A stretch of 48,306 nucleotides of DNA, taken from contig JAHELV010000026.1 of NCBI GenBank assembly GCA_024644015.1, positions 1,918 through 50,223 of the forward strand, written 5' to 3'. The notes under the pieces were generated by a model, which worked only from the letters and a program-made list of their open reading frames with translations, ran no database searches and was not told where the DNA came from. The stretch comes from Nitriliruptorales bacterium. GTDB taxonomy: Bacteria; Actinomycetota; Nitriliruptoria; Euzebyales; JAHELV01. Both the position numbers and the translations under genes were made by a program. The first letter of the stretch is position 1; every line of letters starts with the position of its first letter. This document shows positions 104-48,306 of this stretch, piece by piece.

Positions 104-106
104 ACC

Positions 107-250
107 GCGTGGCGGACCGTCTGCCGACGGACGCAAGTTCGCGGAGCCTGGTTCCGCGAAGCGCGTGGCGGACCGTCCTGACACGGTCGCAAGTTCGCGG
201 AGCCTGGTTCCGCGAAGCGCGTGGCGGACCGTCCCCTGCCGACGGTCGCA
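107..250. repeat. 56-bp tandem repeat, about 2.6 copies, with REP-like hairpin
   Basis: Units start at 107, 163 and 219 with GCGTGGCGGACCGTC. Each of the first two contains a hairpin with arms TTCGCGGA and TCCGCGAA and loop GCCTGGT (138-160 and 194-216). The third unit keeps the GCGTGGCGGACCGTC head but diverges after about 250; there the opposite strand reads GGAGCCTGTTTCG, as if the hairpin were partly present in inverted form. All three reading frames stay open through the repeat, which creates false N-terminal extensions for the next gene. Related copies occur near 7784 and possibly 46884. Confidence 0.85.
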
Positions 251-383: not shown

Positions 384-1184
384 GTGAGCGCCGTGATCAC
401 CTTTCTCTCGGACTTCGGTCTGACAGACACCTACAGCGGTATCTGTCGCGCCGTGATCGCCACGGTCGCGCCGGAGGCGACGGTGATCGACCTGACCCAC
501 ACGGTTCCCGCACTCGACGTCCGCCGCGGTGCCACCGCGCTCGCCGACTGCGTGTCGGTCGCTCCGGCCGCGGTGCACCTCGCGGTCGTCGACCCCGATG
601 CGGCGACCCGGCCCGGCGTCGCGCTCGTCGCCGGCGCCTCGCGCCTCGTCGGTCCGGACAACGGGTTGCTGCTGCCGGCAGCGGAGGCGCTGGGCGGCAT
701 CGACGCGGCCTATCTGCTCACCGACGGACGGTGGCACCGCGCGCCGGCGTCGCCGGTCTTCCGCGGGCGCGACGTGTTCGCACCGGTGGCCGCCCACCTG
801 GCCACAGGTGTCGCGCCCTCGGACGTCGGGCCGCGGATGGACCCCTGCCGGCTGCAGCGTCTGGACGGCGTGGACTCCGTCGTCGGGCACCGCCAGATCG
901 CCACGCAGATCCGTCACATCGACTGCTACGGCAACGTGCAGCTGTCGGTCACGACCGGCGATCTGCAGCGCGCCGGGCTCGACCATGGTCAGCCGGTGCG
1001 GGTCGGCACGCGGCATGAGACCCTTGACGTCCGCCGCGTCGACAGCTTCTCTGATCTGTCGTCGGGTGAGCTCGGGATCGTGGAGGACTCGTTCGGGTGG
1101 CTGGCAATCGTTGCCGGCGCTGCCGCCGCCGCCGACCGGCTGGACCTGCGGGCAGCTGATCCCGTCCGTCTCGGGGATGACTGA
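384..1184 (+). CDS. SAM hydroxide adenosyltransferase (DUF62, SAM hydrolase)
   Basis: The 266-aa product belongs to the DUF62 family, which hydrolyses S-adenosylmethionine to adenosine and methionine and is related to fluorinase/chlorinase. Visible family motifs are the N-terminal FLSDFGLTDTYSG with Asp10, VVDP (67-71), GPDNG (90-94), RGRDVFAPVAAHLA (127-140), the nucleotide-contacting CYGN (181-184) and the C-terminal SSGELGIVEDSFGWLAI. GTG 384 follows GAGG at 369-372 and places the conserved strand at residue 4. An in-frame ATG at 165 would start inside the tandem repeat and add a low-complexity tail, so it is rejected; GTG 393 is an alternative. It heads a run of plus-strand genes, with 3 bp to the next start. 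Confidence 0.85.
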   Translation: MSAVITFLSDFGLTDTYSGICRAVIATVAPEATVIDLTHTVPALDVRRGATALADCVSVAPAAVHLAVVDPDAATRPGVALVAGASRLVGPDNGLLLPAAEALGGIDAAYLLTDGRWHRAPASPVFRGRDVFAPVAAHLATGVAPSDVGPRMDPCRLQRLDGVDSVVGHRQIATQIRHIDCYGNVQLSVTTGDLQRAGLDHGQPVRVGTRHETLDVRRVDSFSDLSSGELGIVEDSFGWLAIVAGAAAAADRLDLRAADPVRLGDD

Positions 1185-6733: not shown

Positions 6734-8113
6734 TCACGGTCGCTCGAGCTGCTGCCGCACGGCGGCCAGGCCGCTCAGGGCTCGCGATTCGACGTCGTGG
6801 ATGCGCAGCAGGGTGTCGCCCATCTCGGAGAACCGCTGCTCGACGGCGTCGGGCGCCAACGGGCACTCGGCGTCCAGCGCCGCGCGGCGCTTCCACAACT
6901 CGGTGCCGGCCGCGGCCGCCTCGTCGGCGCCGCCGTCGCCGTCTCCGGCGACGCATTGACGAACCGTCACCGTCAGGTCGCGCAGGTGGCACAACTGGTC
7001 CTCGACGCCGATCGCGATGCTGCCGAGCTGTGTCCACAGCTCGGCGGCGTCACGCAGACCGTGAACCACGTCGCCGACGTCGATGCCCACCGTCGGGCCG
7101 ACCTCGGTGAGGAAGTCGGCGTACAACCCGCGCAGATGCCCACCGGTCATGCCCGACGCGCTCGTGGCCTCCCAGACCGACAGCAGCGCCCCGCACAGGC
7201 CGACCCGGTCGTCGAACACCTGCCGCCACCCCTTGGCGTCGCCGGCGGCCGTCATCAGCCGGCCCCACCTGCGCCAGGCGGGCAGTGCGAACGACGTCGA
7301 CGTGCCCAGCATCTGGCCGGTGCAGTCGTCGATGCCGGCGCTGATCGCGGTGCGCAACCGCCCAGCGGTGATCATCATGCCGTCGGGCAGCGGGTCGATC
7401 AGCAGGTTCTTGTAGGAGCCGACGCGAGCACGGGCACGGTCGAGCACCTCGCGGGTGACCGTGAGCGGGGCGCTACCGCGGTCGTCGAGCTGGATGCGGT
7501 CGCCGTCCCGCCCGATCACCACCACGGGGTGGCCGCCGTGGCCGCTCAGGTCCGACGGCAGCTGCCAGTACCCGAGCACGCCGCGGTCGGGCCAGACGAC
7601 CGCGGGCCTTCCCGCGTCGAGCGGGACGTCGAGATGGCGTGCCGCGGTCCTGGCGCCGCTGGTCGTCTGCCGGTCGTAGGGCACGCCGAGCCGGTCCAAC
7701 GCGGCTCGGACACCGCGGTCGTGGTACTGCCACTGGTTGCGGAATCCAAGCGTGACGACCCGGCTGTCGTCGTGGGCGGACTCCGTGGAGCCTGGTTCCA
7801 CGAGGCTCGCGGTGGACCGGCCCCGCCGGCCGGAGAACTCCCACAGGATGTAGCCGGCACCGAGGCCGCCCATCACGCCGAACACGACCGCCTCGGACAA
7901 CGGTGCGTTGTCGGGGCCGGTCACACCCGAGTTGGCCAGCACGTTGGCAACGACGGCGGCGTCGGGGTGCAACCCACCCCGCAGCTCGTAGCCGAGTACC
8001 GTCGGCATCGGCGGGTCGGCACCCACGACGTGCCGGCGCGCCGTCGTGTACCGCTCTCCCGTCTTGGCCATCCGCGCGCGGATCCGCGCCTTGCGTCGCT
8101 TGTCACTCGTCAT
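6734..8113 (-). CDS. BtrH N-terminal / DUF4872-like protein carrying an embedded hairpin repeat
   Basis: The 459-aa product begins with a basic leader (MTSDKRRKARIRARMAKTGE), then a segment like the BtrH N-terminal domain (LGYELRGGLHPDAAVVANVL, then SEAVVFGVMGGLGAGYILWE). The rest fits the DUF4872-type C-terminal half, with PVVVIGRDGDRIQLDDRGSA and a helical tail. BtrH is an acyltransferase of butirosin biosynthesis, but most family members have no assigned substrate and no biosynthetic cluster is visible here. Near residues 95-115 the coding sequence runs through a copy of the REP-like repeat (7784-7822), encoding an atypical Arg/Ser/Glu-rich stretch. GGAGGG sits 8 bp upstream of ATG 8113. 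It is divergent from the CBS/DUF294 gene. Confidence 0.7.
   Translation of the reverse strand: MTSDKRRKARIRARMAKTGERYTTARRHVVGADPPMPTVLGYELRGGLHPDAAVVANVLANSGVTGPDNAPLSEAVVFGVMGGLGAGYILWEFSGRRGRSTASLVEPGSTESAHDDSRVVTLGFRNQWQYHDRGVRAALDRLGVPYDRQTTSGARTAARHLDVPLDAGRPAVVWPDRGVLGYWQLPSDLSGHGGHPVVVIGRDGDRIQLDDRGSAPLTVTREVLDRARARVGSYKNLLIDPLPDGMMITAGRLRTAISAGIDDCTGQMLGTSTSFALPAWRRWGRLMTAAGDAKGWRQVFDDRVGLCGALLSVWEATSASGMTGGHLRGLYADFLTEVGPTVGIDVGDVVHGLRDAAELWTQLGSIAIGVEDQLCHLRDLTVTVRQCVAGDGDGGADEAAAAGTELWKRRAALDAECPLAPDAVEQRFSEMGDTLLRIHDVESRALSGLAAVRQQLERP
7784..7822. repeat. Dispersed copy of the REP-like hairpin inside a coding sequence
   Basis: CGTGGA-GCCTGGT-TCCACG (7784-7802) has the same 7-nt loop as the hairpins at 138-160 and 194-216. 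The stem base pair change is compensated (CGCGGA/TCCGCG versus CGTGGA/TCCACG). The flank CGAGGCTCGCGGTGGACCG aligns with CGAAGCGCGTGGCGGACCG of the tandem units. It lies in frame within the BtrH-like gene and introduces no stop. Confidence 0.7.
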
Positions 8114-32640: not shown

Positions 32641-34062
32641 TCATGCCTCGCGAGTCTTCACGCCCGGTCCGCTGACGTTCAGGATCATCTGCGCGCGCTG
32701 GTCAACGTACCGGGTCAGCAGCTGCTGGCCGTACCCCAACAACACGGCCCAGGCGAGGATCTGCGCCGACGAGTCGAGCGCGCTCAGACCAGGGATGAAC
32801 TCGCCGCGCATCAGCAGCAGGCCGAGCACCGCGGTCAGCGCTCCCGCCGGTAGCTTCAGTAGCGCGAGCGCCACGGGCAGGCTATACGGCGTCGAGGTCC
32901 CGCGGATCTGCCGTAGCGACGTGGCGGCGGACAGTCCCGCTGCGAGCAGCCCGACGAACGCGACAAGTGCGACGTCCAAGCGCCCGGCGGTTGCTCGGAT
33001 CGCATCGTCTCGGAGCGCCTGTTGTGTGGGGATTGTCGCCGGTTGCGGCTCTTCGTCTTGCGCGTCCCGCCCACCGTCGCCCTGTGGCTGCACGTCAGGG
33101 GTTCCCGGATCCTCGGACGTTTCGTCGGCGACCTGCGCAGGCGGGAGCTCGTTCTCATTGGTGGGACACACGATCAGGGTTCGGGCCCGCGTCCCGGTCA
33201 GCGCTGGCTCCGGCGCGTCGTCGGTCGCACCCGGTTCCGGCGATGGCTCCGATGCCTCGTCGGTCGCACCCGGTTCCGGCGACGGCTCAAGTGCTTCTTC
33301 GGTCGCACCCGGTTCCTGCGGCGGGATGGGTGCTGGAGCTGGGCGGGGTGCCACCGCGACCTCCTGCTCTTGGGTCGGTGTGAAGCACAGCGGCAAGGCG
33401 CCGGGATCGAGGGCGCCGACCGCCGCGATCACGACCGCGCCCACCAGTAGCACCGTCGCCGTAATCAGCAAGACGTTGCGGAAGCTGCGCAGCCGCATGA
33501 TCTTCCGACGCCCGGCCGAGTACGCGCCGCGCGTGGCCGCGATGACCACGGCGCGCTCGTCCGGGCTCAGAGTGCGCCTGTGGGACTTCGCCTTGTCGCC
33601 GAACGCGACCTCCGCCAGGCGACGCCGCCGATGATCTTCCTTGGGCAGGTGGACTTCAGCGTTCACGAGCAGACTCGGCAGTTGGCCGCAGACGTACGCG
33701 TCGGGCGCGATGCGTAGCAAGTCGACCTCAGCCGCGTCGAGGTTGGTCGACGCCCGCTCGACGCCAGCGCCATTGAGCGATGTCCAGGCCCGCGCGAAGC
33801 CGCGTTGGTTGGCAACACCGCGCACGCGGGCCAGGTGCCGCTGGATCGCAACCACCATCGCCTGCGAGCAATGGTCGCTCTCCCTCGAGCAGCACTCGTC
33901 ACTCGCGGCCGGTCCTGTTGGGCAAGCAAACGTCTCGAGCAAGGACTGCAGCTCATCGGCACGGGTCAGCGCGTGCTGCTGCCAGGGCGTATTCCCCAGC
34001 CACTCGTTCGCGTCGACCAGTCCCGGGTCCGGCGCGGTGCATCGTCGTCCGGCACATCGCAC
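32641..34062 (-). CDS. Multi-pass membrane protein with acidic Pro-rich repeat linker, unknown
   Basis: A 473-aa protein of unknown function. Residues about 15-190 are soluble; the stretch NLDAAEVDLLRIAPDAYVCG and LPSLLVNAEVHLPKEDHRRR looks like a conserved helical domain. One helix follows (196-217), then an extracytoplasmic or flexible linker (about 220-355) with three 13-aa units of EPSPEPGATDEAS type, then three hydrophobic segments (364-382, 395-417, 432-446) ending with AWAVLLGYGQQLLTRYVDQR. I have seen related C-terminal segments in other actinobacterial hypothetical proteins but cannot name a family. The start is uncertain: GTG 34062 overlaps the ribosome binding site GGGAGG, and the Cys-rich first 15 residues may not be real. 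Confidence 0.6.
   Translation of the reverse strand: MRCAGRRCTAPDPGLVDANEWLGNTPWQQHALTRADELQSLLETFACPTGPAASDECCSRESDHCSQAMVVAIQRHLARVRGVANQRGFARAWTSLNGAGVERASTNLDAAEVDLLRIAPDAYVCGQLPSLLVNAEVHLPKEDHRRRRLAEVAFGDKAKSHRRTLSPDERAVVIAATRGAYSAGRRKIMRLRSFRNVLLITATVLLVGAVVIAAVGALDPGALPLCFTPTQEQEVAVAPRPAPAPIPPQEPGATEEALEPSPEPGATDEASEPSPEPGATDDAPEPALTGTRARTLIVCPTNENELPPAQVADETSEDPGTPDVQPQGDGGRDAQDEEPQPATIPTQQALRDDAIRATAGRLDVALVAFVGLLAAGLSAATSLRQIRGTSTPYSLPVALALLKLPAGALTAVLGLLLMRGEFIPGLSALDSSAQILAWAVLLGYGQQLLTRYVDQRAQMILNVSGPGVKTREA
33206..33315. repeat. 39-bp in-frame repeats in the membrane-protein linker
   Basis: GTCGCACCCGGTTCCGGCGA-type units recur at about 39-bp spacing (three copies), encoding PEPGATDEASEPS-like 13-aa steps on the minus strand. 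The high identity at DNA level suggests recent slippage. Confidence 0.8.
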
Positions 34063-46720: not shown

Positions 46721-46846
<126 letters not shown>

Positions 46847-46883
46847 TAGCGGCCGCGGCGGGTCTGCCGGGCGCAGAACTGGG

Positions 46884-46917
46884 GGGAGCCTGGTTGCCCG
46901 ACACGTCCGGCGGACGG
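46884..46917. repeat. Possible diverged copy of the REP-like element
   Basis: GGAGCCTGGTTGCCCG followed by GGCGGAC at the same spacing as in the units at 107-218. The stem is largely lost (weak pairing). It sits between the SRP RNA and dnaX. Confidence 0.3.
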
Positions 46918-46946
46918 CTCCGCCGGACAGGAACCGACGAGGTGCC

Positions 46947-48306
46947 ATGGCCCACGTCTCGCTGTATCGCAAGTACCGGCCACAGACCTTTGCCGAGATC
47001 GTCGGGCAGCCCCACGTCACCGAGACGCTGTCACAGGCGCTCACTGAGGACCGCCTGCACCACGCGTACCTGTTCACCGGCCCACGTGGCACGGGCAAGA
47101 CGTCGACCGCGAGGATTCTGGCCAAGGCCGTCAACTGCGAGCAGGGCCCGACGCCCGCGCCGTGCAACGTCTGCCAGCAGTGCCGGTCGATCACCGCCGG
47201 TGCGAACGTCGATGTGATCGAGATCGACGCCGCCAGCCATGGCGGCGTCGACGACGTGCGTGACCTGCGGGAGCGTGTGGCGTTCGCGCCGGCCTCGGCA
47301 CGCATGAAGGTCTACATCGTCGACGAGTGCCACATGCTTTCGACAGCCGGGTGGAACGCGTTCCTCAAGACGGTCGAGGAGCCCCCGGACCACGTGCTGT
47401 TCGTCTTCGCCACCACGGAGCCGCACAAGGTGCTCGCGACGATCCTGTCGCGCACGCAGCGCTTCGATTTCCGGCGCCTCGCCGCCGACACGCTGACGGC
47501 CCGCGTCGAGCACATCGGCGCACGCGAGCAGGTCTCCTTCGACGTCGGCAGCGTCGCGCTGATCGTGGGCGCGGGAGACGGCAGCGCCCGCGACACCGAG
47601 TCGGTGCTCGAACAGGTCATCGCGTTCACCGGTCCCAAGGTGACCGTCGAGGGCGTCATCGAGGTGCTCGGCGCCACCGACGACGACCTGCTCGCAGACA
47701 TGGCGGCCAGCATCGCAGGTGGCGACGTCGCCGGCCTGTGCCGGTTGGTGCAGCGTCTGGCCGACAGCGGCCACGACCTGCGGCAGTTCGCGCGTGACGC
47801 GACCGAGCATCTGCGCGTGCTGTTCCTCCTCCAGTCCGCACCCGATGCCGACCTGGTGCCGGGCACACCCGAGCGGCTCGAGCTGCTGCGTGAGCAGGCA
47901 GGACGGCTCGGACAGATCGAACTGCTGCGCGCAGTGGACCTGCTGGCCGAGTGCCAGGCGCAGATGCGTCGCGGCAACACCCGTCTGCCGCTGGAGCTGG
48001 CGCTGGTCAAAGCAGCCTTGCCCGAAGCGTCGGGTGACGCCGCGGCACTTGGTGCTCGGCTGGACCGCCTCGAGCGCCGTGGCGGCAGCGACCAGGGTGC
48101 GTTGCCGGAAGCCCAGGTGGTGGCGCAGACCGACGATCGTGGTGAGCGGCCACCCGCGGCTGCGGTCGACAGCGTGTCTGCCGGACCGCCGTCCGCGCCT
48201 GCCGGACCGCCGTCCGCACCTGCTGGGCCGCCGTCCGCGCCTGCTGGGCCGGCGTCCGCCCCGCCGACCGCCTCGAACCGGATCGTGGTGATCTCGTCGT
48301 TGAAGG
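46947..48306 (+). CDS. dnaX: DNA polymerase III subunit gamma/tau (partial, 3' end outside window)
   Basis: 453 codons are present. AAA+ clamp loader: YLFTGPRGTGKTSTARILAK with Walker A 45-52, zinc module C64, C73, C76, C79, IVDECHMLS, sensor 1 FATTEPHKV and SRTQRFDFRRL. Domain III follows, then an Ala/Pro/Gly linker from about residue 410 with four 7-aa units (AGPPSAP). The ATG at 46947 has GAGG 6 bp upstream. No slippery A-run heptamer is seen in the part present. The C-terminal tau region is outside. Confidence 0.95.
   Translation, partial: MAHVSLYRKYRPQTFAEIVGQPHVTETLSQALTEDRLHHAYLFTGPRGTGKTSTARILAKAVNCEQGPTPAPCNVCQQCRSITAGANVDVIEIDAASHGGVDDVRDLRERVAFAPASARMKVYIVDECHMLSTAGWNAFLKTVEEPPDHVLFVFATTEPHKVLATILSRTQRFDFRRLAADTLTARVEHIGAREQVSFDVGSVALIVGAGDGSARDTESVLEQVIAFTGPKVTVEGVIEVLGATDDDLLADMAASIAGGDVAGLCRLVQRLADSGHDLRQFARDATEHLRVLFLLQSAPDADLVPGTPERLELLREQAGRLGQIELLRAVDLLAECQAQMRRGNTRLPLELALVKAALPEASGDAAALGARLDRLERRGGSDQGALPEAQVVAQTDDRGERPPAAAVDSVSAGPPSAPAGPPSAPAGPPSAPAGPASAPPTASNRIVVISSLK
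48178..48255. repeat. 21-bp in-frame repeat in the dnaX linker
   Basis: Four units of about 21 bp (GCCGGACCGCCGTCCGCGCCT type), encoding AGPPSAP. The third and fourth vary in GCTGGG for GCCGGA. Typical of slippage in a flexible linker. Confidence 0.85.

Follow-up and report, generated by a model that had tools for sequence, protein, structure and literature searches.

The tandem hairpin array at the start of the window (the whole stretch of 48,306 nucleotides analysed here, from a Nitriliruptorales bacterium) probably belongs to a genus-restricted family of non-autonomous, mobile, miniature palindromic repeats of 39-57 nucleotides (nt), which occurs in two main forms, A and B. The forms share a hairpin core and differ in their arms and in the places they occupy: form A lies in most cases between genes and in some cases in frame within them, and form B at the stop/start junctions of operons. 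Mobility is deduced from the turnover of copies and from empty sites; no fresh insertion within a species was seen in the data from four genomes.

Distribution of the family

The host assembly is a draft of 4.0 Mb in 161 contigs, and it was compared with three other genomes of its genus (the set is numbered G000 to G003), all of them drafts, 87-97% complete, with N gaps inside arrays. Genes were predicted with a purpose-built gene finder, host copies were examined through their fetched flanks, and the E-values given for model matches are rough. A preliminary description of this DNA had proposed that the repeat be sought throughout the genome, and this search returned 46 exact occurrences of the 13-mer core GGAGCCTGGTTCC in the 4.0-Mb host genome, against 0 for the reversed control and so well beyond what chance would give, and a further 25, 10 and 13 in the three congeners. 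Among 57 further genomes of the order and class, the core was found just three times, as single strays whose flanks lack the arms of form A or B. A covariance model of form A (R1) finds at least 36, 24, 36 and 33 copies in the four genomes of the genus, which are lower bounds with 150 candidates scored per genome, and it finds no matches in 20 genomes of the order and class. The form A pattern matches only one of the named genomes, a congener. Carriage by phages or plasmids finds no support, the searches of viral contigs (with the exact form A pattern) and of plasmids (blastn) being empty, and no Rfam family matches the repeat above its gathering score, the SRP RNA and a tRNA being the only such matches in the window. 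The repeat is a family restricted to one little-known genus of Actinomycetota, with no family outside it.

The array in the window

The features of the window that concern the repeat are the following (hairpins as read from the sequence).

106 to 247, minus strand (presumed functional strand): head-to-tail form A array, with units 106-161 and 162-217 and a partial unit 218-247
117 to 130, minus strand: hairpin 2, first copy, CCGTC/GACGG
138 to 160, minus strand: hairpin 1 of unit 1, with a perfect 8-bp stem and a 7-nt loop
171 to 188, minus strand: hairpin 2, second copy, GACCGT/ACGGTC
194 to 216, minus strand: hairpin 1 of unit 2, identical to that of unit 1
227 to 247, minus strand: hairpin 2, third copy, GACCGTC/GACGGTC
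249 to 275, no strand: native conserved flank outside the repeat, by alignment to three relatives without the array
384 to 1184, plus strand: SAM hydroxide adenosyltransferase gene (PF01887, E 1.1e-39; PF20257)
6734 to 8113, minus strand: gene for a BtrH_N + DUF4872 protein (Pfam), host of the next copy
7778 to 7833, minus strand: form A copy, in frame in the BtrH_N/DUF4872 gene, about 19 residues GRRGRSTASLVEPGSTESA (model E 5e-11)
46876 to 46930, minus strand: form A copy, degenerate, in the gap that separates the small SRP RNA gene from the following open reading frame (ORF; model E 6e-5)

The two perfect hairpins TTCGCGGA-GCCTGGT-TCCGCGAA at 138-160 and 194-216 are present as first described, and so is their head-to-tail tandem, for which the repeat scan (families D6/D18) gives a period of 56; the covariance model matches the array at 134-184 and 190-245 on the minus strand. 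The related copy near 7784, with the stem CGTGGA/TCCACG, is also real and extends over about 7778-7833. A third element, taken at first for a partly inverted unit, is not a repeat: the sequence AAGTTTTTCGAAACAGGCTCC at about 251-275 is native to this intergenic region, and similar sequence is kept at the same place in 3 of 3 relatives without the array, where the flank AAGT..TTCGAAACAGG is its counterpart. In the host the array lies between an upstream gene and the SAM hydroxide adenosyltransferase gene, which starts about 137 nt past it, and in all three relatives it is absent. The array adjoins a scaffold gap of about 100 N just left of the window, and positions 1-127 of the window repeat the sequence on the far side of that gap (contig C14, L050), so that its true number of units is uncertain; the assembly break seems to lie inside the tandem array. 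The degenerate copy at 46876-46930, the fourth in the window, is located about 40 nt past the small SRP RNA gene (46735-46834). The repeat scan also lists other short tandem repeats in the window, at 48178-48261 and 33201-33317, with periods of 21 and 39.

Anatomy and covariation of the stems

Read on strand F, form A (about 57 nt) is CTGTCCGGCGRAGCCGGTCCNCCGCGTGTTTCGTGGAACCAGGCTCCGCGAAGTT, in the order hairpin 2 (CCGGC/GCCGG), linker, and hairpin 1 with GGA-ACCAGGC-TCC, the invariance of which in the training set is a product of how that set was selected. On the strand that tolerates wobble pairs, it consists of two hairpins, CCGGC-GRA-GCCGG and then TTTCGTGGA-ACCAGGC-TCCGCGAA. Some copies of form A have a variant tail, TGGTCGTCTCGCTGACGCTCGACTTCC, which at the enolase site separates the two hairpins in G002 as additional sequence and is absent in G000. 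The ends of form A are able to pair (CGCGGAGCC...GGCTCCGCCG), and this end-to-end pairing shows no covariation. Form B (39-41 nt) reads ATGAGCGCCGCAGCGGAACCAGGCTCCGCGGAGGCCCTGAC at locus L084 and has the core in common with form A, while in form C, which is less common, the arms are perfect but of another sequence (GATTC/GAATC, GATCC/GGATC). A direct repeat of about 36 nt (CGCCAATC.AGCATCGCGGCGGTGACGGGCACGAA) stands on either side of the repeat at L040:2850-3150 and at L098:2390-2600, which makes a larger composite unit in both species.

Covariation across copies, the check suggested for the hairpin, was assessed on 56 distinct diverged copies that were found by the model outside its training set and fetched because their core differs. 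The stems do covary: two-sided changes occur at 10 of 14 base pairs, and the covariation score is 0.233 against 0.136 +/- 0.008 in shuffles, with 0 of 500 shuffles as high and all slid controls far lower. These counts lean towards the model, as the alignment of the 56 copies was fitted to it; the training alignment itself shows modest covariation. The change from CGCGGA/TCCGCG to CGTGGA/TCCACG, on which the claim of compensation had originally been built, is present but is the weakest example, since within the genus this pair is most often U.G when read on the GGAACCAGGCTCC strand, which corresponds to C.A on the strand quoted, and CG and TA are each one step away from that state. Clearer compensation is seen in TTCG/CGAA to TCTG/CAGA, and at the orthologous pheS site, where TTCG/CGAA in G000 is TTTG/CAAA in G001.

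Wobble pairs make F the better candidate for the folded strand. Read on F, the pair of the original example, which lies outside the core, is U.G in 48 copies, Watson-Crick in 42 and A.C in 1, and over all pairs there are 121 G.U against 42 A.C, an excess driven by two positions. For 33 of 40 copies the drawn structures give a lower energy to a long-range fold, in which hairpin 2 pairs with the core, than to the two hairpins, and minimum-energy folding often favours this fold. As a conserved structure I reject it, with a covariation of 0.066 against 0.063 in shuffles (154 of 500) and its loss in lineages with changed stems. For the form B unit, single-strand folding gives a stability no greater than that of shuffles. 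The hairpin may be under selection, or it may be renewed by copying from structured master copies; either fits the data.

Insertion sites between and within genes

The neighbours of the repeats are unrelated housekeeping and other genes. Among 110 neighbouring genes I found no linked gene family or regulon, the most recurrent families having 3 members, and no transposase among the recurrent families. In co-directional gaps of the four genomes, 37 clusters of form A have one orientation with respect to the genes on either side and 14 the other, a bias that simple insertion leaves unaccounted for. Sites common to different species are few (enolase, pheS, L040/L098, uvrC-rapZ, L075/L094 and the ATP-grasp gene), and the enolase copy of G003 is a decayed one. 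It would seem, then, that a copy is acquired, persists for some time and disappears again. Some of the shared sites keep the hairpin between species, which could reflect a local function there.

The sharpest insertion is found in a GCS2/ATP-grasp gene, where 57 nt (19 residues, FAEPGSANDAADRLRRTGR in G002) are inserted in frame in G002 and G003, while G000 and G001 read GGC AAC TGG at the same site, an exact empty site in proteins that are 77-81% identical. This insertion is not accompanied by a target duplication of 4 nt or longer. The copy at 7778-7833 in the window, which corresponds to a 19-residue gap in the alignment with a 35%-identical homologue, is likely a second in-frame insertion, less certain than the first. 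Within a gene, form A would add 19 residues that are tolerated. Other copies also lie inside predicted genes, including those for RecA and dCTP deaminase; in G001, these two genes (L073:5-1282 and L160:64-1617) have homing-endonuclease (intein-like) domains and a repeat copy inside the predicted ORF.

Form B at operon junctions

Form B is located at the ATGA or GTGA stop/start junctions of operon genes, among them uvrC-rapZ, lysS and argB, and runs in the same direction as the operon. The next start lies 5-6 nt beyond the element window for 9 of the 12 form B clusters on the same strand, and the unit usually brings a GGAGG Shine-Dalgarno sequence 6-8 nt ahead of that start. At L084 the upstream gene stops in ATGA and is followed by a minicistron, MSAAAEPGSAEALT, whose own TGA stop lies within the ATGA of the next start. 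Analogous junctions are found at L067, L043, L072, L080 and L078, and in L032, L053 and L046 the units are read through up to the same overlap, either as the extended end of an upstream ORF or as an open frame. In G003 the junction that corresponds to L084 is an empty site, which lacks the unit and contains ATGAGCG once (comparison of L084 with L188). For the lysS form B (L043) the relatives are too diverged upstream for such a reading. The uvrC-rapZ junction has two units in G001 and, in G000, eight cores together with an N gap. As a rule form B brings either a short ORF whose TGA overlaps the next start, or an upstream ORF extended to the same point, and it is probably tolerated because the stop/start overlap is re-created and a GGAGG is supplied. 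By analogy with MIRUs (mycobacterial interspersed repetitive units; PMC12548453), the minicistron may also couple translation to the next gene.

The differences in arm length and in niche, and the finding of exact-core form B in G000 and G001 only, could suggest that forms A and B are separate families whose cores are alike by convergence. I regard this as unlikely: the 13-mer is identical, the arms can be aligned, and in-frame copies of form A share an EPGS reading frame with most of the form B minicistrons.

Alternative explanations and the mobiliser

The invariant core within a covarying stem, and the position of form B at the ribosome-binding site of the next gene, would also be expected of a cis-regulatory RNA or operator, with a protein that binds the loop or palindrome and controls the adjacent genes. 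However, the neighbouring genes are unrelated, form A occurs in both orientations, at variable distances to genes and inside them, and the sites differ between species, all of which makes regulation an improbable explanation for the family.

The repeat had been likened to a REP element, arranged as in bacterial BIMEs and moved by TnpA-REP proteins. The likeness extends to size, dispersal, clustering and covariation, but neither to the BIME arrangement nor to the mobilisation. What was taken for an inverted unit is native sequence, and the arrays run head-to-tail without inverted dimers. Copies in frame within genes and at operon junctions had no place in that proposal. The defining mark of REPs is a GTAG or CGTC tag, and GTAG families are associated with RAYT genes (PMC3733652); beside the hairpin I find neither tag, the flanks being GCGTG.. 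and AAGTT. The search for a RAYT gene that had been recommended gave no match to PF01797 in the host or its three congeners, with the control positive in 5 of 14 known genomes. An origin from RAYT or IS200 elements (PF01797, PF07282) was rejected, with no match or one below the cut-off. The mobiliser is, on present evidence, not a recognisable RAYT. One might still suppose a true REP/BIME whose RAYT gene has been lost or falls within an assembly gap, as the repeats agree with published REPs in their small size, hairpin, dispersal, clustering and intragenic copies, and as REPtrons can be lost by deletion (PMC3733652). Against this, PF01797 is absent from four genomes that are 87-97% complete, and there is no tag, no transposase near the copies and no inverted dimer, so that I give this possibility slightly less credence even than regulation. 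Intrinsic transcription terminators or stabilisers of mRNA 3' ends, to which stable, GC-rich and mostly intergenic hairpins might point, are hardly credible, with no T-run and 0 terminator-like sites in the array and with convergent gaps accounting for only 7 of the 85 intergenic clusters of form A that were classified, in line with background.

If the repeats are mobile, as I favour, the mobilising enzyme would recognise the folded hairpin, in single-stranded DNA or in RNA, and tandem arrays would grow by slippage.

Relation to known repeats

The family shares traits with several known repeats and is a proven member of none. Like REPs and BIMEs it consists of hairpin repeats (20-60 nt in those) that are dispersed in many copies, clustered and in part intragenic, but it lacks their RAYT, tag and inverted dimers. 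RPEs are palindromic repeats of about 150 bp inserted in frame in unrelated genes (PMC10969869), and the in-frame insertion in a functional gene that marks them is found here as 19 residues in the GCS2/ATP-grasp gene, with occupied and empty sites; compared by description, however, RPEs belong to Rickettsia and are often intragenic, whereas the present repeats belong to Actinomycetota, measure 57 nt and are mostly intergenic. MIRUs are dispersed elements of 40-100 bp (PMC2734929) that insert at start codons in operons and carry a small ORF coupled, at a spacing of -4, to the gene that follows (PMC12548453). Form B resembles them in being short, prone to tandems and located at start codons in operons, with a small ORF at the next gene, and at one site in being an insertion against an empty site. 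The likeness is one of description, in another genus, with units of 39-41 nt around a core of the covarying hairpin type, and in a family that, unlike MIRUs, also has intergenic and in-frame members. MITEs, too, are small, dispersed and non-autonomous, and the ends of form A can pair, but there is no target duplication of at least 4 nt at the sharpest site, no known parent element and no covariation in the end pairing. The family is best filed under miniature interspersed palindromic repeats (REP/RPE/MIRU-like).

Tentatively, and with a little less than even confidence, I propose that one hairpin core has radiated within this genus into three harmless niches of a dense genome, namely intergenic sites, in-frame sites, and junctions that receive a minicistron and a Shine-Dalgarno sequence, by means of an enzyme other than a RAYT; MIRUs and REP/RPE elements may then be the ends of one continuum. 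How REP-like repeats without a RAYT spread, and how MIRU-like repeats do, is an open question, and here both lifestyles occur in a single family. With occupied and empty sites known to the nucleotide in four related genomes, the target rule and the mobiliser can be searched for by comparing a few genomes. The family also offers a clear case of small repeats that have turned into segments of proteins and, probably, into ribosome-binding sites.
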